A stretch of DNA of 38,185 bases, from positions 1 to 38,185 of the forward strand of contig JAJQFO010000255.1 in NCBI GenBank assembly GCA_021201095.1. Direction: 5' to 3'. Source of the DNA: Lachnospiraceae bacterium. Lineage in GTDB: Bacteria > Bacillota > Clostridia > Lachnospirales > Lachnospiraceae. Below are positions 8,188 to 35,691 of this stretch, in pieces (within the stretch, counting starts at the first letter, position 1; every line of letters begins with the position of its first letter). The notes beneath the pieces are model-generated. The model was given only the letters and a program-made list of their open reading frames with translations, did not search any database and was not told the DNA's origin. The translations under genes and the position numbers were made by a program.

Positions 8188-8262
8188 CGGGGTGTGGCTC
8201 AGCTTGGCTAGAGCGCCTGGTTTGGGACCAGGAGGTCGCAGGTTCGAATCCTGTCACCCCGA
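8188..8262 (+). tRNA. tRNA-Pro(TGG)
   Basis: cggggtgtggctcag...ctggtttgggaccag...ggttcgaatcctgtcaccccga. Confidence 0.95.
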
Positions 8263-8293
8263 TGGTGTTTCAAGGCGGCTTATGTATAGATAT

Positions 8294-8364
8294 GCGGGTG
8301 TAGTTCAATGGTAGAACACCAGCCTTCCAAGCTGGACACGTGGGTTCGATTCCCATCACCCGCT
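8294..8364 (+). tRNA. tRNA-Gly(TCC)
   Basis: gcgggtgtagttcaatggtagaacaccagccttccaagctgg...ggttcgattcccatcacccgct. Confidence 0.95.
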
Positions 8365-8368
8365 TTTT

Positions 8369-8442
<74 letters not shown>

Positions 8443-8480
8443 GTCTCATATTTTGCGGAACAAAATAGTGAGTTATTATG

Positions 8481-8555
8481 GTGGGTATGGCGCAGTTGGC
8501 TAGCGCGCCAGATTGTGGCTCTGGAGGCCAAGGGTTCGAGTCCCTTTACCCACCC
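8481..8555 (+). tRNA. tRNA-His(GTG)
   Basis: gtgggtatggcgcagttggctagcgcgccagattgtggctctgg...ggttcgagtccctttacccaccc. Confidence 0.95.
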
Positions 8556-8583
8556 TTTTTCATTGTAATAATTAACCCATTTT

Positions 8584-8655
8584 TGGGCTATCGCCAAGCG
8601 GTAAGGCACAGGTCTTTGACACCTGCATTCGCCGGTTCGAATCCGGCTAGCCCAG
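8584..8655 (+). tRNA. tRNA-Gln(TTG)
   Basis: tgggctatcgccaagcggtaaggcacaggtctttgacacctg...ggttcgaatccggctagcccag. Confidence 0.95.
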
Positions 8656-8738
8656 CTTGGTTTTTTTGTGCCCAAAAGACACATGAAATCGTGAAAAATT
8701 TTGACAGATGATAGCTGTCTGTCAGGGCAATTGTCCAG

Positions 8739-8818
8739 GCGGCCATGACGGAATTGGCAGACGTGCAGGATTTAGGTTCCTGTGGGAGACCGTGCGGGTT
8801 CGACTCCCGCTGGCCGCA
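8739..8818 (+). tRNA. tRNA-Leu(TAG)
   Basis: gcggccatgacggaattggcagacgtgcaggatttaggttcctg...ggttcgactcccgctggccgca. Confidence 0.94.
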
Positions 8819-8924: not shown

Positions 8925-9027
8925 ATTATGGGAAGAAAACCGCTTCCCATAATGCTCCAGAATCTGGCGATTCTGTCGCTAACTTATCGGGTGAAAGCCC
9001 GCAAGCGCGCTTTCCTTCCGATAAGTT
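8925..9027. repeat. Palindromic element PE-2, copy 1
   Basis: attatgggaag/cttcccataat, cagaat/attctg and aacttatcgg/ccgataagtt stems; copies at 20657-20747 and 34670-34772. Confidence 0.9.
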
Positions 9028-9071
9028 ATATTATAGGAACGCAAGAAAATTAGCAGACAACGGAGGCATTT

Positions 9072-11761: not shown

Positions 11762-12004
11762 GAAAAGTTTAGCACATTTTTTTCAGAGAGAAAAGACAGA
11801 ATCATATTGATTTTATGTGAATCGTCTGATAAACTGTTGAAGGCTGAAATAAAAAAGGCTGGAATAACAAAGCTTAAAACAATGAAACGTTACATTAAAA
11901 TAATGAAGCTTAAAACAGCAAAGTTTATAACTAACGAGGCTTAAGCTAACGGAGTTTAAAACAACAGAACCTGAAGCTAAAAGAATTAAAACCGCAGAAT
12001 ACAA

Positions 12005-12092
12005 AGCAACAAAGCCTGGAAAAAGTTAAAGCAACGAAGCAACAAGGTCTGGAAAAAGTTAAAGCAACGAAGCAACAGGGCCTGGAAAAGTT
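12005..12092. repeat. ~33-bp tandem repeat, about 2.7 copies
   Basis: aaagcaacgaagcaacaaggtctggaaaaagtt followed by aaagcaacgaagcaacagggcctggaaaagtt. Confidence 0.85.
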
Positions 12093-12141
12093 AAAGAACA
12101 AAGCAGTGAAGACAGAAAAAACAGGAAAGGAAGGGAATAGC

Positions 12142-14269: not shown

Positions 14270-14416
14270 CAGGACCTGCTGCTGACGGTCCTGAAATAGA
14301 AAGCAGCGGGACTAGCCGCTGACAGCCCTGAAATAGAAAAACAGCAGGACTAGCCGCTGATAGTCCTGGACCCTGAAATATAGAAGTGCAACAGGAACCG
14401 TTACTAACGGTTCCGG
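14268..14416. repeat. Degenerate tandem array of four stem-loops between tig and clpP
   Basis: Stems aggacc/ggtcct, gggact/agccc, aggacta/tagtcct, ggaaccgtta/aacggttcc at ~36-47 bp spacing. Confidence 0.8.
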
Positions 14417-20656: not shown

Positions 20657-20747
20657 ATTATGAGAAGAAAACCGCTTCTTATAATGCTCCAGAATCTGGC
20701 GATTCCGTCGCTAACTTATCGGGTGAAAACTCTCCTTCCGATAAGTT
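20657..20747. repeat. Palindromic element PE-2, copy 2 (12 bp shorter internal loop)
   Basis: attatgagaagaaaaccgcttcttataatgctccagaatctggcgattccgtcgctaacttatcgggtgaaaactctccttccgataagtt. Confidence 0.9.
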
Positions 20748-20815
20748 AAATCAGGGAAAACACAGCTGCGCGAGGATACCAGACAGCTGCGAAAAACAGG
20801 AAGAGAGGACTTAAA

Positions 20816-28792: not shown

Positions 28793-30457
28793 ATGAAAAG
28801 ATCAAAGAGAATCGAGGCTCTGGATCAGCGGAAGGTGAATCTGGACGGTTTTATCGATGAGTGGTCGGAAAAAGGATTCGCCGCGATGGACAGTCCTTAT
28901 GATCCGGCGCCGTCCGTCCGGGTTGAGAACGGACGGATCGTGGAGCTGGACGGAAAGAAGCGGGAGGAGTTTGACTTTATTGATCAGTTTATCGCGGATT
29001 ACGCGATGCGCGTGGATCGGGTGGAGCGCTCCATGGCGATGTCTTCCGTAGATATTGCGCGGATGATTGTGGATATTCATGTTTCCAGAGACGAAATTCT
29101 GAAGGTCGTATCCGGCATCACCCCGGCGAAGATGAAAGAGGTCATCAACGAGCTGAACGTGGTCGAGATGATGATGGGCATGCAGAAGATGCGCGCGCGC
29201 CGGGTGCCGGGAAATCAGGCACACATTACGAATTTAAAGGATGACCCGGTACAGCTGGCGGCCGATGCCGCCGAGGGAGCACTCCGAGGCTTCCGCGAGG
29301 AGGAGACGACGATGGGAGTTGCCCGCTACGCGCCCTTCAGTGCGATTGCGCTGCTGATCGGCTCACAGGTGGGCGGACGCGGCGTGCTGACGCAGTGCTC
29401 CGCAGAGGAGGCTACGGAGCTGGAGCTGGGAATTCGCGGTTTTACGACCTATGCGGAGACCCTTTCTGTGTACGGGACGGAGAAGGTATTTATCGACGGC
29501 GATGATACGCCTTATTCCAAGGCTTTCCTGAATTCCGCCTATGCCTCCCGCGGACTGAAGGTGCGTTTTACCTCAGGATCCGGCTCGGAAGCGTTGATGG
29601 GCAGCACGGAAAAGAAATCCATGCTCTATCTGGAGTGCCGCTGCCTGTATATGACGAAGGGAGCAGGCTCTCAGGGGATTCAGAACGGCTCTGTGAGCTG
29701 CATTGGTATTACAGCGAGCGTGCCGGCCGGGATTCGTGAGGTGATGGGCGAAAATCTGGTGGCGGCGCTTCTGGGACTGGAGTGCGCCTCTTCCAATGAC
29801 CAGAGCTTTTCGCATTCGGATATGCGCAGGACGGCGCGGACGATGCTTCAGTTTCTGCCGGGCACGGATTTTATCTTTTCCGGCTATGCGGCGGAGCCCA
29901 ATTATGACAATATGTTTGCCGGGTCCAATTTTGACGCGGAGGACTTTGACGATTACAACGTGATGCAGAGAGACATGCAGGTGGACGGTGGCCTGCGGCC
30001 GGTGACGGAGGAAGATGTAATCCGTGTGCGGCGCAGGGCGGCCAAAGCCGTGCAGGCAGTTTTTTCGTACCTGCATGTGGCGGAAGTGACGGACGAGCAG
30101 GTGGAGGCTGTGACCTACGCGCACGGCAGCAAGGATACGCTGGACCGGGATGTGGTAGCAGATCTGATGGGTGTGGAGGATCTGATGAAGCGCGGCATCA
30201 CGGGCGTGGATGTGGTGAAGGCGCTCGCGGAGACCGGCTATGAGGACGTGGCAGAAAGTGTCCTGAACATGCTCCGGCAGCGGGTTATCGGCGATTATAT
30301 GCAGACCGCGGCGATCCTGGATGAAGACTTCCACGTGATGAGCGGTGTAAATACGCCGAATGATTACATGGGCCCGGGGACTGGGTACCGGGTGAACGGC
30401 GCGCGTTGGGAAGAAATCAAAAAGATCCCGCACAGGATTGACCGGAATAATTTCTAA
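28793..30457 (+). CDS. pduC: B12-dependent propanediol/glycerol dehydratase large subunit (ORF-track start at 28601 rejected)
   Basis: MKRSKRIEALDQRKVNLDGFIDEWSEKGFAAMDSPYDPAPS...MMMGMQKMRARRVPGNQAHITN...TSGSGSEALMG. Confidence 0.97.
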   Translation: MKRSKRIEALDQRKVNLDGFIDEWSEKGFAAMDSPYDPAPSVRVENGRIVELDGKKREEFDFIDQFIADYAMRVDRVERSMAMSSVDIARMIVDIHVSRDEILKVVSGITPAKMKEVINELNVVEMMMGMQKMRARRVPGNQAHITNLKDDPVQLAADAAEGALRGFREEETTMGVARYAPFSAIALLIGSQVGGRGVLTQCSAEEATELELGIRGFTTYAETLSVYGTEKVFIDGDDTPYSKAFLNSAYASRGLKVRFTSGSGSEALMGSTEKKSMLYLECRCLYMTKGAGSQGIQNGSVSCIGITASVPAGIREVMGENLVAALLGLECASSNDQSFSHSDMRRTARTMLQFLPGTDFIFSGYAAEPNYDNMFAGSNFDAEDFDDYNVMQRDMQVDGGLRPVTEEDVIRVRRRAAKAVQAVFSYLHVAEVTDEQVEAVTYAHGSKDTLDRDVVADLMGVEDLMKRGITGVDVVKALAETGYEDVAESVLNMLRQRVIGDYMQTAAILDEDFHVMSGVNTPNDYMGPGTGYRVNGARWEEIKKIPHRIDRNNF

Positions 30458-30470
30458 GGAGGACACGGAT

Positions 30471-31346
30471 ATGGAAGTAAATGAAGCACTGGTCCGGCAG
30501 ATTACGGAAGCAGTCGTCCGTGAACTCCAGACGAGGGATTACGGTGGGAAAAGTGGGACTGCTGACGGCAATGGAGCCGGAGTGGCAAGTCGAACTGTTG
30601 GCGGCAGTGGAGCCGGAGGGACAAGTGGAACAGCTGGCGGCAGTGGAACCGGGACAAAAAGCGGAATGGCTGGCGGCAGTATAGCCGCGGCAGGAAGCGA
30701 TAACGACAAAAGTGAAAATAGCAGTAATGAGAATGGCACAATCAGGAATTACTGGGGCGAAATAGTAACAACCGCCCGCCCGGATGAAAATGAAACCGCA
30801 CTTCCGAATAAAATAGATTATCATGGTTACCCGCAGGCGAAGCAGGGAACGGACCCGAAGGAGGTCGTGATCGGTGTGGGCGCTGCCTTTGGCACCGTGA
30901 TCAAACATACGATCACCGGCATCCCGGTCGACAAGGTGATCAAGGCCATTATCGCCGGGATCGAGGAGGAAGGGATGACCGCGCGGGTGGTCAAAAACCT
31001 GAAGACTTCGGACGTCTGCTTTATCGGCCTTGAGGCCGCGAAGCTGAGCGGCTCCGGCTTTGGGATCGGCCTGCAGTCGAAGGGGACGGCGGTCATTCAT
31101 CACAAGGCTCTTTATCCGCTCTCCAATCTCGAACTGTTTCCCCAGGCGCCGCAGATGACGCTGGAGACTTACTTCGCGATCGGAAAAAATGCGGCAAGGT
31201 ATGTAAAGGGTGAAAAGGTAGTGCCGGTGCCTGGCACAAATGACCCGATGGTGCGGGCGAAATACCAGGTAAAGGCGGCACTGATGCATATCCGCGAGAC
31301 AGATCAGATCTGTCCGGAGCTGAATATCATTGAATGGACGGTGTGA
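30471..31346 (+). CDS. pduD: Propanediol/glycerol dehydratase medium subunit
   Basis: MEVNEALVRQITEAVVREL; EVVIGVGAAFGTVIKHTITGIP...AGIEEEGMTARVVK...SNLELFPQAPQMTLETYFAIGKNAARYVKG. Confidence 0.96.
   Translation: MEVNEALVRQITEAVVRELQTRDYGGKSGTADGNGAGVASRTVGGSGAGGTSGTAGGSGTGTKSGMAGGSIAAAGSDNDKSENSSNENGTIRNYWGEIVTTARPDENETALPNKIDYHGYPQAKQGTDPKEVVIGVGAAFGTVIKHTITGIPVDKVIKAIIAGIEEEGMTARVVKNLKTSDVCFIGLEAAKLSGSGFGIGLQSKGTAVIHHKALYPLSNLELFPQAPQMTLETYFAIGKNAARYVKGEKVVPVPGTNDPMVRAKYQVKAALMHIRETDQICPELNIIEWTV
30549..30698. repeat. In-frame 36-bp (12-aa) tandem repeat within pduD
   Basis: GAGVASRTVGGS / GAGGTSGTAGGS / GTGTKSGMAGGS, with a partial unit before and after. Confidence 0.9.
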
Positions 31347-31350
31347 GAGT

Positions 31351-31743
31351 ATGGCATATCCTTTAGGAGAGCATGAGGCGGAGCGAATCACCTCAAGAAC
31401 AGGAAAAAAGTTATCTGAGATTACGCTGGAAGAAGTCCGGAACGGCAATATCACCGCCGATGATATTAAGATTTCGCAGGAGACGCTGGCCGCGCAGGGA
31501 GCGGTGTGCAGAGAACATGACAATCCGGCCATGGATGAGAATTTCGTGCGCGCGTCGGAGATGGTAAATATTCCGGATGATGTGATCCTGAAAATGTATA
31601 ATCAGCTGCGGCCCAACCGTTCCACAAAGCTGGAGCTGGTGCAGATGGCGCAGACCCTGCTGGAGCAGTATCACGCGTCGCACTGCGCGAAGCTGGTGCT
31701 GGACGCGGCGGAGATTTATGAAAAACGAGGGATTTTACTGTAA
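31351..31743 (+). CDS. pduE: Propanediol/glycerol dehydratase small subunit
   Basis: YPLGEHEAERITSRTGKKLSEITLEEVRNGNITADDIKISQETLAAQ...RPNRSTKLELVQMAQTLLEQYHA. Confidence 0.96.
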   Translation: MAYPLGEHEAERITSRTGKKLSEITLEEVRNGNITADDIKISQETLAAQGAVCREHDNPAMDENFVRASEMVNIPDDVILKMYNQLRPNRSTKLELVQMAQTLLEQYHASHCAKLVLDAAEIYEKRGILL

Positions 31744-31926
31744 AGAAGTCCTTAATCGTAATAGTCATCAGGCTAATGTTTTTGATTTGCAATGGATTTG
31801 CAGTGTGAACTGGGATTAAGAGTGGTGCAGTGAAAAACATTGCGTGGCCATTTGCAGCCAAGGACCCGGCGGCATACACGGTGCCTGGCCTGCTGTTTTG
31901 TGAGAATAAAGGAACACGGTGGAAGT

Positions 31927-33936
31927 ATGGACATCAGGACGGTTGCGGGGATCGACATCGGAAATTCGACAACGGAAGTGTGCATCGGCACGTTTGACGA
32001 GAAGGGCAGACTCACCTTTCACGCCAGTGCCCGGACTCTGACGACCGGTACCAAGGGGACACCGGAAAATGTGCGTGGAATCCGCACGGCGTTGGAGATG
32101 GCGGTGGAAAAGACCGGGCCGCACCGGATTTATCCGGATGTGCTGCTGCTCAACGAGGCAGCGCCCGTGATCGGGGACACGGCCATGGAGACCATCACTG
32201 AGACCATTATTATGGAATCCTCTATGATCGGGCACAATCCATCCACTCCGGCGGGCGTCGGACAGGCAGTGGGAGAGATTATCCGCATTGATCATCTTTC
32301 CCGGGCGATTCCCGGGAAAAACTACATCGTGACGGTTCCGAAGGAGGTTTCCTACGAGACGGCAGCTTCGCAGCTGAACGCGGCATGGGACCAGATCCGG
32401 ATGACCGGGGCGATCCTGCAGCGCGACGAGGCCGTTCTGGTATACAATCGCCTGCGCCACAAGATTCCGATCCTGGATGAGGTGGCGAAGCTGGAGCAGA
32501 TTCCGGAATTCCGGATGGCCGCCATCGAGGTGGCGCCGGCGGGGCAGACGATCCGCATGCTTTCGAATCCGTATGGGATTGCGACTTTGCTGGATCTGAA
32601 CGCGGATGAGACCCGTCAGGTAATGCCGATTGCCAAGAGCCTGATCGGGAAAAGAAGCGCGGTAGTCATCCGTACGCCCGGAGGCAATGTCCGGGAGCAG
32701 ACGATCCCTGCCGGGGAAATTTACATCAGCGGGGAGCGTAAAACAAGTGTACAGATTGACGCGGGCGCGGAAAAAATCATGGAAGCTGTTCATGAGGCGG
32801 GCGTGATCACAGACGTGGACGGCCAGGAGAACAGCAACGTGGGAAATATGCTGCGGCGGATTAAAAGCGGTATGCACCGCGTTTCCGGCCAGCAGCCGGA
32901 AAACATTCGCATCACCGATATTCTGGCGGTCGATACGCTGGCTCCCGTGCGGATTTCTGGTGCGCTGGCGGACGAGACCTGTATGGAAAAAGCCGTCGGC
33001 GTGGCCGCGATGGTCAAGACCAGCCGGCTGCCGATGCAGGAGATTGCCGATCTGCTTAGCGAGGAGATGGGGATTCCCGCGCGCGTAGCCGGTGTGGAGG
33101 CAGTCATGGCTTCCATGGGAGCGCTGACGACTCCCGGGACAAAGCTTCCGCTGGCGATTCTTGATATGGGAGGCGGCTCGACAGACGCCGCACTGGTGAC
33201 GGAGGATGGCAAAGTGACAGTCACTCACCAGGCGGGAGCCGGTGAGCTGGTGACGATGCTGATTCAGACGGAGCTTGGCCTGCACAGCCGCATGACGGCA
33301 GAACGGATCAAACGTTCGCCGCTGGCAAAGGTTGAGAGTCTGTTTCATATCCGGCTGGAGAGCGGAGAAATCCGCTTTTTCGAGGAGCCTCTGGATCCGC
33401 GGCTGTTTGGGTGTGTGGTGCTGCTGGAACAGAAGAAATCGATGGACAGGGATGGAGCATATGCTGCCGGGACGAATTCCACGGGGGCATATACCGCAGG
33501 GGCGAATTCGGCAGGGGGAAACATCACAGGTATGAATTCCACTGGAGCCTATACTACAGGGACAAATTCTGCGGGAGCAGGTCAGTCTTCCCAAGAAACA
33601 TCGGATTCCTGGGAAATGGTGCGGATCGAGGAGGATCTGACACTCGAGCGCATCGCGGATGTGCGCCGCGAGGCTAAGCGAAAGGTGTTTGTGACAAATG
33701 CGCTGCGGGCGCTGGAAAGCATCGCGCCGGATCATGACCTGCGGAAGGTGCCGAATGTAGTACTGGTCGGCGGGTCTGCAGAGGATTTTGAGATTCCTGA
33801 GCTGCTTTTAGAGGAGCTTTCTAAATACCGGGTACTCTGCGGCCGTGGAAACATCCGCAAAACAGAAGGACCGCGCAATGCGGTGGCGACAGGACTGGTG
33901 ATGTCCTGGTGGGGGAATCGTCATGGAAATGAATAA
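31927..33936 (+). CDS. ddrA: Diol/glycerol dehydratase reactivase large subunit
   Basis: VAGIDIGNSTTEVCIGTF...ILDMGGGSTDAALV...HQAGAGELVTMLI...VLVGGSAEDFEIPELLLEEL. Confidence 0.95.
   Translation: MDIRTVAGIDIGNSTTEVCIGTFDEKGRLTFHASARTLTTGTKGTPENVRGIRTALEMAVEKTGPHRIYPDVLLLNEAAPVIGDTAMETITETIIMESSMIGHNPSTPAGVGQAVGEIIRIDHLSRAIPGKNYIVTVPKEVSYETAASQLNAAWDQIRMTGAILQRDEAVLVYNRLRHKIPILDEVAKLEQIPEFRMAAIEVAPAGQTIRMLSNPYGIATLLDLNADETRQVMPIAKSLIGKRSAVVIRTPGGNVREQTIPAGEIYISGERKTSVQIDAGAEKIMEAVHEAGVITDVDGQENSNVGNMLRRIKSGMHRVSGQQPENIRITDILAVDTLAPVRISGALADETCMEKAVGVAAMVKTSRLPMQEIADLLSEEMGIPARVAGVEAVMASMGALTTPGTKLPLAILDMGGGSTDAALVTEDGKVTVTHQAGAGELVTMLIQTELGLHSRMTAERIKRSPLAKVESLFHIRLESGEIRFFEEPLDPRLFGCVVLLEQKKSMDRDGAYAAGTNSTGAYTAGANSAGGNITGMNSTGAYTTGTNSAGAGQSSQETSDSWEMVRIEEDLTLERIADVRREAKRKVFVTNALRALESIAPDHDLRKVPNVVLVGGSAEDFEIPELLLEELSKYRVLCGRGNIRKTEGPRNAVATGLVMSWWGNRHGNE
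33454..33573. repeat. In-frame 30-bp (10-aa) tandem repeat within ddrA, four units
   Basis: GAYAAGTNST / GAYTAGANSA / GGNITGMNST / GAYTTGTNSA. Confidence 0.9.
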
Positions 33937-34255
33937 ACCGGCTGTTCATTTGTATACAACAGACGAGCATCTGCCCTCTTTGCCTGAGATCTGCGCAGGT
34001 CTGGAAGAAGAAGGCGTGCCGTGGAAGCTGATACAAACAGAAGGAAGCGCGGAAGAGCTGGCCTGGCGTGCCGCGCAGGATTCTGTGCTGGAGACTGGAA
34101 TCGGAGTGACTAGGCAGGCTGCGGCACTGCAGATCAGCCGCGTGCCAAAGGAACGTCCGGTATTTCTCTTTGCAAATCCGACCGCAGACCAGAGCCGGGC
34201 ATTGGGAACGAACGCCGCCAGAGCGGTGAAGAAAAGACGGTTTGTAGAAACGTAG
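33923..34255 (+). CDS. ddrB: Diol/glycerol dehydratase reactivase small subunit
   Basis: Overlaps the ddrA 3' end; PAVHLYTTDE...CAGLEEEGVPWKL...AQDSVLETGIGVTRQAAALQISRVPKERPVF. Confidence 0.92.
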   Translation: MEMNKPAVHLYTTDEHLPSLPEICAGLEEEGVPWKLIQTEGSAEELAWRAAQDSVLETGIGVTRQAAALQISRVPKERPVFLFANPTADQSRALGTNAARAVKKRRFVET

Positions 34256-34270
34256 AGGCGCAGAAGTGCA

Positions 34271-34350
34271 GAAGCGTAAAAGTGCAGAAATATAGAGAGA
34301 TAGAAGCATAAAAGTGCAGAAGTATAGAGGTATTGAAGCATAGAGACAAG
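34271..34350. repeat. 32-bp tandem repeat, about 2.5 copies, in the ddrB-pduO spacer
   Basis: gaagcgtaaaagtgcagaaatatagagagata / gaagcataaaagtgcagaagtatagaggtatt / gaagcatagaga. Confidence 0.8.
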
Positions 34351-34434
34351 GCATGCAGAACTCGTTTGAGAATGGAATCAGCAAAGAATCAGATAGTCAG
34401 GAATCACGCAGCAGACAGGGAAAGGAGTACGGCA

Positions 34435-35691
34435 GTGAAAATTTATACCAAAACAGGCGACCGAATGACGACCGGACTCCTAGACGGGACGCGGGTATCC
34501 AAGCATGATGAACGCATTCATCTTCTTGGAAACATCGACGAACTGAACAGCCAGCTCGGCGTGGTAAAGAGCCTCACGGCGGAACCGGCGCGGAAGGAAG
34601 AGCTTTCCGGCATCCAGAGAATGCTGATGAGGATCATGTCCGGAATTGCGGACGCTTCACAATCAGGAGATTATGAGAAGAAAACCGCTTCTCATAATCC
34701 TCCAGAATCTGGCGATTCTGTCGCTAACTTATCGGTTCCGAGTACGCAAGCGTCCTCTCCTTCCGATAAGTTAAACTATCAGGTGGATGCAGCTTCCATT
34801 GCGCATCTGGAGGCAGAGATTGACCGCATGGAATCTGCTTTTGAGCGGATAAAAGACTTTGTTCTGCCTGGCGGCTCCTTTTATTCCGCCCAGATTGATG
34901 TGGCGAGGACCGTGACCAGACGCTGCGAGCGCTGGTTCGCCCAGGTGGCGGAAGAATATCCCATGGATACAGAGGCAGCCCGTTACCTGAACCGTCTTTC
35001 TGATTACCTGTATGTACTGGCCCGGTATGTGGATGCTTCTGATCAGGAACAGACACAGCAGACGCCTGGAGCAGAACATTCACTTGAAGGGCAATCTTTG
35101 GGCGATTCTTTATCGATAGAGCAAAAAGACATAAAAGCCATAAAAGACACAAAAGACATAAAAGACATAAAAGATATAAAAGACGCAATAGGTGCAAAAG
35201 ATTCATCAGATAAAAAAATCGCCCTTACTGCGGAAAGAGCACAACAGGCTGTTGACCGGCTCCACAGGCAGATCAATAATTCCTGCGGGACATTCTATAC
35301 CTTCTGCGTCTGTGACGCCGAGGGAAAGCAGCTGGCGACAAACGCGCTGGCGCATTATTCAGTGGCTGTCTTTGAGGCACAGCGTTCCGCCACGAACGCG
35401 CTCCTGCGGGCTGCCAGAGCTGCTGTGGGGACAGGAGCAGATGCTGCGTCAGGGCAGACAGCAACATTCGGCTCAATCTCAACGTCAGGGCAGACCGTGT
35501 TATCTGCGCCGATAGCAGCACCAGGCCAACTGGCGGCAGCAGGATCAGCTGCGGTACCAGAAGATGGAGGAGCCGCTATATACATTCAGGGCCAGCTGAC
35601 CGGCAGCGTGGGCGTGTATGGCTCATACAAAAAAGACATAAATGAAAAAGCACAGATGCTGCTGGATTTGCTTTGTTTTACTGGAAGGTAA
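34435..35691 (+). CDS. pduO: PduO-type cob(I)alamin adenosyltransferase with long C-terminal extension (GTG start likely)
   Basis: MKIYTKTGDRMTTGLLDGTRVSKHDERIHLLGNIDELNSQLG...IDRMESAFERIKDFVLPGGSFYSAQIDVARTVTRRCERW...RYLNRLSDYLYVLARY. Confidence 0.92.
   Translation: MKIYTKTGDRMTTGLLDGTRVSKHDERIHLLGNIDELNSQLGVVKSLTAEPARKEELSGIQRMLMRIMSGIADASQSGDYEKKTASHNPPESGDSVANLSVPSTQASSPSDKLNYQVDAASIAHLEAEIDRMESAFERIKDFVLPGGSFYSAQIDVARTVTRRCERWFAQVAEEYPMDTEAARYLNRLSDYLYVLARYVDASDQEQTQQTPGAEHSLEGQSLGDSLSIEQKDIKAIKDTKDIKDIKDIKDAIGAKDSSDKKIALTAERAQQAVDRLHRQINNSCGTFYTFCVCDAEGKQLATNALAHYSVAVFEAQRSATNALLRAARAAVGTGADAASGQTATFGSISTSGQTVLSAPIAAPGQLAAAGSAAVPEDGGAAIYIQGQLTGSVGVYGSYKKDINEKAQMLLDLLCFTGR
34670..34772. 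repeat. Palindromic element PE-2, copy 3, inserted in frame in pduO
   Basis: attatgagaagaaaaccgcttctcataatcctccagaatctggcgattctgtcgctaacttatcgg...ccgataagtt inside the adenosyltransferase domain. Confidence 0.92.
35125..35187. repeat. 9-bp in-frame tandem repeat (seven units) in pduO
   Basis: aaagacata-type units encoding KDI KAI KDT KDI KDI KDI KDA. Confidence 0.92.
35446..35553. repeat. 36-bp degenerate in-frame repeat (three units) in pduO
   Basis: ASGQTATFGSIS / TSGQTVLSAPIA / APGQLAAAGSAA. Confidence 0.7.

Follow-up and report, generated by a model that had tools for sequence, protein, structure and literature searches.

In-frame minisatellites at the linkers and loops of diol dehydratase, reactivase and adenosyltransferase proteins in a Lachnospiraceae lineage

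Intragenic repeats of bacteria are best known from surface proteins. The arrays described here resemble bacterial intragenic minisatellites and VNTRs in their tandem units of 9-36 bp, their position in frame, their low-complexity product and a copy number that differs among close relatives, but in this lineage they also lie inside cytosolic metabolic and housekeeping enzymes, in 6-20% of sampled ORFs. A second point of comparison is the encapsulation-peptide proteins of bacterial microcompartments (PduD, PduP, EutC), in which an amphipathic N-terminal helix is followed by a poorly conserved disordered linker and then by the cargo core (PMC12339742). The PduD described here has the same plan of helix, linker and core; it differs in that the linker is an array of about four copies within a 97-aa stretch, and in that no recognised shell genes adjoin the operon. 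The third comparison is with Rickettsia palindromic elements (RPEs), hairpin elements that are read through in frame (PMC10969869). An element of about 110 bp in the pduO studied here is likewise dispersed and hairpin-forming; it lies in frame in a protein-coding sequence, where it probably persists as a disordered insert, whereas most of its copies lie outside long ORFs and its host is a Lachnospiraceae genus. This likeness is one of behaviour, as RPEs are described in PMC10969869. In the literature searched we found no description of such arrays, or of the palindromic element in pduO, in Lachnospiraceae.

The window, by which we mean the whole stretch of DNA analysed (38,185 nucleotides, contig JAJQFO010000255.1), belongs to a draft genome of 362 contigs with an estimated contamination of 5.35%. 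Its diol dehydratase operon has the gene order pduC-pduD-pduE-ddrA/pduG-pduH-pduO, all six identities being backed by Pfam (Table 1).

Arrays of the operon and their place in the proteins

An initial annotation had described four in-frame minisatellites in pduD, ddrA and pduO, and all four are confirmed, by TRF, by a self-match scan and, for the fourth, by comparison with a close relative. The ddrA array falls under the TRF threshold and was picked up by the more sensitive self-match scan, which returned zero arrays from a locally shuffled window. The 36-bp array of pduO is under the threshold of both programs, and its three units have little in common except a GQ core; it is credible because the orthologous PduO C-domain site of that relative, L025, carries 4.9 near-identical 36-bp copies (89%). 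Self-identity of the window's arrays in the self-match scan is 66-80%; they are degenerate. The coding periods of 36, 30, 9 and 36 bp are all divisible by three, and the frames given in the annotation are correct for these arrays. Within the same interval the annotation overlooked two further features, an intergenic array between pduH and pduO and a 108-bp insertion in pduO. The period of the intergenic array is not divisible by three, and it is the sole out-of-frame array in the interval. Elsewhere in the window, tandem arrays are found at 12004-12105 (33 bp x 3.2, within an ORF) and 14270-14368 (38 bp x 2.6).

Table 1. Genes, tandem arrays and inserted element of the diol dehydratase operon, in window coordinates
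Feature	Position	Strand	Description
pduC	28793..30457	+	diol dehydratase large subunit (Dehydratase_LU), Pfam PF02286, E 2e-301
pduD	30471..31346	+	medium subunit, Pfam PF02288; encapsulation-peptide-like N-terminal helix, repeat linker, core
pduD minisatellite	about 30540..30687	+	36 bp x 4.1, in frame, Gly/Ser-rich linker; TRF 30542-30687, score 145
pduE	31351..31743	+	small subunit, Pfam PF02287; array-free
ddrA/pduG	31927..33936	+	diol dehydratase reactivase large subunit, Pfam PF08841 and PF18427; structures 1nbw_A, 2d0o_A
ddrA minisatellite	33454..33578	+	30 bp x 4.2, in frame, DdrA loop; self-match scan score 31, self-identity 66%
pduH	33923..34255	+	reactivase small subunit, Pfam PF02288; array-free
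intergenic array pduH-pduO	34264..34344	+	8/16/32 bp, degenerate; TRF
pduO	34435..35691	+	corrinoid adenosyltransferase with C-terminal domain, Pfam PF01923; structures such as 36zl_A, 2zhy_A
dispersed palindromic element copy	34670..34780	+	108-bp in-frame insertion, PduO adenosyltransferase domain
pduO 9-bp minisatellite (KDI)	about 35124..35190	+	9 bp x 6.8, in frame, hinge joining the two PduO domains; TRF 35124-35184, score 101
pduO 36-bp array (ASGQ)	35446..35553	+	36 bp x 3, degenerate, in frame, C-terminal-domain loop; identified from its units

The N-terminus of PduD, MEVNEALVRQITEAVVREL, aligns with MEINEKLLRQIIEDVLSEM, residues 1-24 of 1dio_B, a diol dehydratase beta chain of known structure, at a weak local score (5.3 bits), and the core alignment resumes only at residue 122. 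This places the array in the linker that joins the core to an encapsulation-peptide-like helix. An amphipathic helix motif of this kind, like PduD 1-18, is present in 73/102 PduD homologues, and between identical anchors the linker of most homologues measures 18-38 aa. At four MAG loci (L039, L078, L082 and L094) three encapsulation-peptide-like helices follow one another at the N-terminus of PduD, at intervals of about 60 aa, and precede the core. The DdrA array corresponds in position to about residues 505-507 of 1nbw_A, a structure free of any insert; a structure model of DdrA was discarded (mean pLDDT 55) and this alignment used in its place. The PduO model assigns pLDDT above 90 to many helices of the adenosyltransferase domain and below 50 to residues 86-89, 92-109, 215-244, 253-256 and 336-371, and these low-confidence segments match the palindromic insert (86-89, 92-109), the KDI hinge (215-244) and the ASGQ loop (336-371).

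Variation among relatives and across the genome

The two closest loci, L025 (MI.9_6, genome G313) and L026 (U_127077, genome G305), are from public MAGs. PduC is 99% and PduE 98% identical between the window and both of them, and PduC, PduE and PduH align with both relatives without a gap; pduC has no array. Both relatives have arrays at the window's sites, with differing copy numbers or units, in what is a comparison of three closely related genomes. In L026 the PduD linker has lost 24 and 35 aa; in L025 it has been rearranged and is longer. The ddrA unit family is common to all three, at 4.2 copies in the window, 4.9 in L026 and 8.8 in L025. The KDI repeat of PduO is degenerate in L026 and missing from L025, and the intergenic array is shorter in L026, with the same degenerate motif. 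All six gaps between the window and L026 operons lie within linkers, as do 11 of the 12 that separate the window from L025, the twelfth adjoining the PduO hinge; pooled over both relatives, 17/18 indels are in linkers and the remaining one is adjacent. Neutral or nearly neutral expansion with variable length, one of the readings raised in the initial annotation, is supported by these lengths, which differ between close relatives and do so at linkers. The pduD of L026 (G305:C166:34401-34961) has an in-frame TAG within the PduD core, either a pseudogene or an assembly error.

Further out, L027 and L028, with PduC 90% identical, are array-free at the window's array sites and have no insert in DdrA. 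A wider survey covered 83 loci with ddrA and pduD and 74 with pduO; arrays were present in 6 ddrA, 5 pduD and 4 pduO ORFs, counts that include the window, L025 and L026, one of the ddrA matches, like the single pduC match, falling outside the protein core, in the upstream part of a stop-to-stop frame. No array was found in 83 pduE or 74 pduH homologues. L029 and L107/L046 (L107 and L046 share one sequence) have arrays at the PduD linker that appear to be independent. Judged from these sequences, distant loci mostly lack arrays and a few have apparently gained their own. The homologue comparison proposed with the initial annotation finds repeat-free versions in other genera.

In the sampled genomes, the period was divisible by three for 71/72 arrays in ORFs of at least 150 aa versus 15/38 others (Fisher p 1e-12), although the ORF criterion itself somewhat favours in-frame arrays. 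Between units of the pdu arrays, 45% of differences fall at third codon positions and the ratio of nonsynonymous to synonymous codon pairs is 118:57; between the pduC genes of the window and L025 the corresponding values are 105/115 (~90%) and 5:110. The arrays are thus held in frame while nearly free in sequence. A third-position share of 45% is above the neutral third, and a slight residual constraint on their sequence remains. Gly and Ser make up 0.54 of the PduD array, and 0.62 and 0.48 of two other PduD arrays, against a median of 0.19 for genome arrays. This richness hints at selection for flexibility, but a linker that had been rich in Gly and Ser before it was amplified would look the same.

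For the window's genome we relied on a sample of 40 stretches totalling 502 kb, in which a sensitive scan found 58 arrays and 8.1% of ORFs of at least 100 aa were array-bearing. The proportion of ORFs with arrays was 20.4% in the genome of L025, 5.9% in that of L026, 2.9% in G152, of the same genus and without the operon, and 1.1% in G225, of the same family and with a repeat-free operon. Sliding windows of 4.7 kb held at least three arrays in 18/642 cases in our sample, versus 0/300 and 0/310 in the two comparison genomes. The genes concerned include a TatD-related DNase, an LD-carboxypeptidase, a D-Ala-D-Ala carboxypeptidase, an alpha-rhamnosidase and a GH65 enzyme in the window's genome, and a DNA topoisomerase and a tRNA pseudouridine synthase in that of L025. 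Arrays in three of the six genes of one operon exceed the genome average; at 8.1% per gene the binomial probability for three of six adjacent genes is ~0.009, so that a genome as large as this one should hold several such clusters. The initial annotation had taken the clustering to be peculiar to the diol dehydratase system; with 8.1% of sampled ORFs carrying arrays and 18/642 windows carrying at least three, that view is not supported, and the annotation's own counter-case, repeats frequent across the genome, largely holds in the 0.5-Mb sample.

Several accounts of the distribution were tried and rejected. A specific tie to microcompartment cargo was set aside, the genes of a glycyl-radical microcompartment operon in the same genome being without TRF arrays. 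This locus (L231, G000:C296, 2255-14844) encodes a glycyl-radical enzyme, shell proteins, an aldehyde dehydrogenase and an aldolase. As for loss of mismatch or hairpin repair, MutS1 scores above its curated cut-off in all five genomes compared, and SbcC-family matches are present in all five, each under the family cut-off, so that there is no simple repair loss. Lengths within the TatD family across the genus are mostly normal and do not discriminate. A GC-rich, non-coding 37-bp tandem unit occurs in two genomes of the genus (L131, 15788-15955; L167, 2116-2272), seemingly one unit in opposite orientations, and is possibly another dispersed repeat family.

A dispersed palindromic element in pduO

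Where the window has the 108-bp insertion in pduO, L025 reads AGC, and at the protein level L026 has no insert. Searched as DNA, the inserted sequence matches 44 places in the window's genome, partial matches and itself counted. A covariance model finds 32 copies there, 29 in the genome of L026 and 15 in that of L025, and none in G152 or G225; at E 1e-5, 21/47 genomes of the genus have a match. Across 22 copies from the genus, 96% of cells are paired, nine pairs have changed on both sides (31 such cells), and 0/500 shuffles reach the observed level of covariation. The predicted fold is multi-hairpin (z -5.3). The insertion in pduO is an in-frame copy of a dispersed, covarying palindromic element.

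Most copies lie outside long ORFs, which span 6 of the 33 copies checked. These ORFs include pduO and matches to the sortase, AAA-ATPase and aminotransferase families; in-frame insertion is clear for pduO, the one gene covered by an empty-site comparison. Two other copies in the window, at 8925-9034 and 20657-20750, are not spanned by a long ORF, and the first lies directly downstream of a tRNA cluster (8188-8818). An Rfam identity was sought and rejected, no family reaching its gathering score and the sole match with E<1 in the stretch (0.45) lying outside the element.

Origin of the arrays and what it means

We consider it likely that the arrays are explained by a lineage-wide expansion of in-frame minisatellites, filtered by reading frame and by the tolerance of disordered linkers. 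Tandem duplication, genome-wide and specific to the lineage, would make ordinary in-frame minisatellites, probably by replication slippage or unequal recombination, a mechanism that we infer. Selection would retain an array only if the frame stays intact and the added residues fall in a disordered linker or surface loop able to tolerate them; the tolerant sites here would be the PduD linker from encapsulation peptide to core, the DdrA loop, the hinge between the PduO domains and the loop in the PduO C-domain. Arrays so retained would then vary in copy number and drift almost freely, while the fifth insertion, in the PduO adenosyltransferase domain, would be of other origin, the palindromic element having landed in frame. 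The arrays to be accounted for are specific in their sites, changeable in length among relatives, filtered for frame, relaxed in sequence constraint and, in the sample, abundant genome-wide; that they bring no specific benefit we infer. Against this reading count the slight residual constraint on sequence, the Gly+Ser richness of the PduD linker and the excess of array-bearing genes in the operon over the genome average.

Alternatively, the arrays could be adaptive, length-tuned disordered spacers that aid the co-assembly of PduCDE with its reactivase and PduO, for instance inside a metabolosome core or a condensate. Condensates form through encapsulation peptides joined by disordered linkers, PduD being the most robust of those tested (PMC12339742), and Pdu cargo co-assembles, PduG and PduO included (PMC9132943); co-assembly is compatible with this published work on encapsulation peptides, the PduD array sits exactly in the encapsulation-peptide linker, and Gly/Ser-rich arrays recur at that linker. 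However, comparable arrays are present in unrelated enzymes of the same genome, related operons without arrays have unchanged cores, and array lengths differ freely between close relatives. Moreover, no shell gene was recognised among the ORFs and Pfam matches examined around the operon, and the shell-protein matches that were recognised in the genome are all on different contigs, with the strongest in the glycyl-radical locus. Linker-driven co-assembly is possible but unsupported, and we think it unlikely that the arrays arose in its service.

It is less probable still that strain-variable length serves the operon as a switch or as a phase-variation device. Copy number does differ among relatives, but coding periods that are all multiples of three mean that a change in copy number cannot shift the frame; the arrays are degenerate (66-80% self-identity), unlike the near-perfect short repeats that usually switch, and the only array out of frame is intergenic. 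Least credible is an artefact of assembly or binning: short-read assembly can collapse near-perfect arrays, and the genomes compared are drafts, the two close relatives being MAGs and the window's genome being fragmented and carrying the contamination given above, but arrays occupy matching sites, inside open frames, in three separate assemblies, with the ddrA unit family in all three, so that an artefact is largely refuted and, although copy numbers may be underestimated, the existence of the arrays stands.

If lineage-wide expansion under a filter of frame and tolerance is the correct reading, the unit of interest is the lineage and not the operon, and linker repeats in MAG proteins need not mean function. 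The element in pduO suggests that palindromes insert in frame in a gut Firmicutes genus as well as in Rickettsia, from which such insertion is best known. More speculatively, and in our view improbably, this gut Lachnospiraceae lineage may be in a hyper-minisatellite state, in which a mutational process keeps adding disordered in-frame insertions to core metabolic enzymes, at some sites alongside in-frame landings of a palindromic element; the lineage would then be a natural experiment in the degree to which central enzymes can bear or use new disordered linkers, the tuning of diol dehydratase assembly included. Should the genome-wide pattern hold, it would provide many matched pairs of enzymes, with and without a disordered repeat, in which the effects of linkers could be tested.
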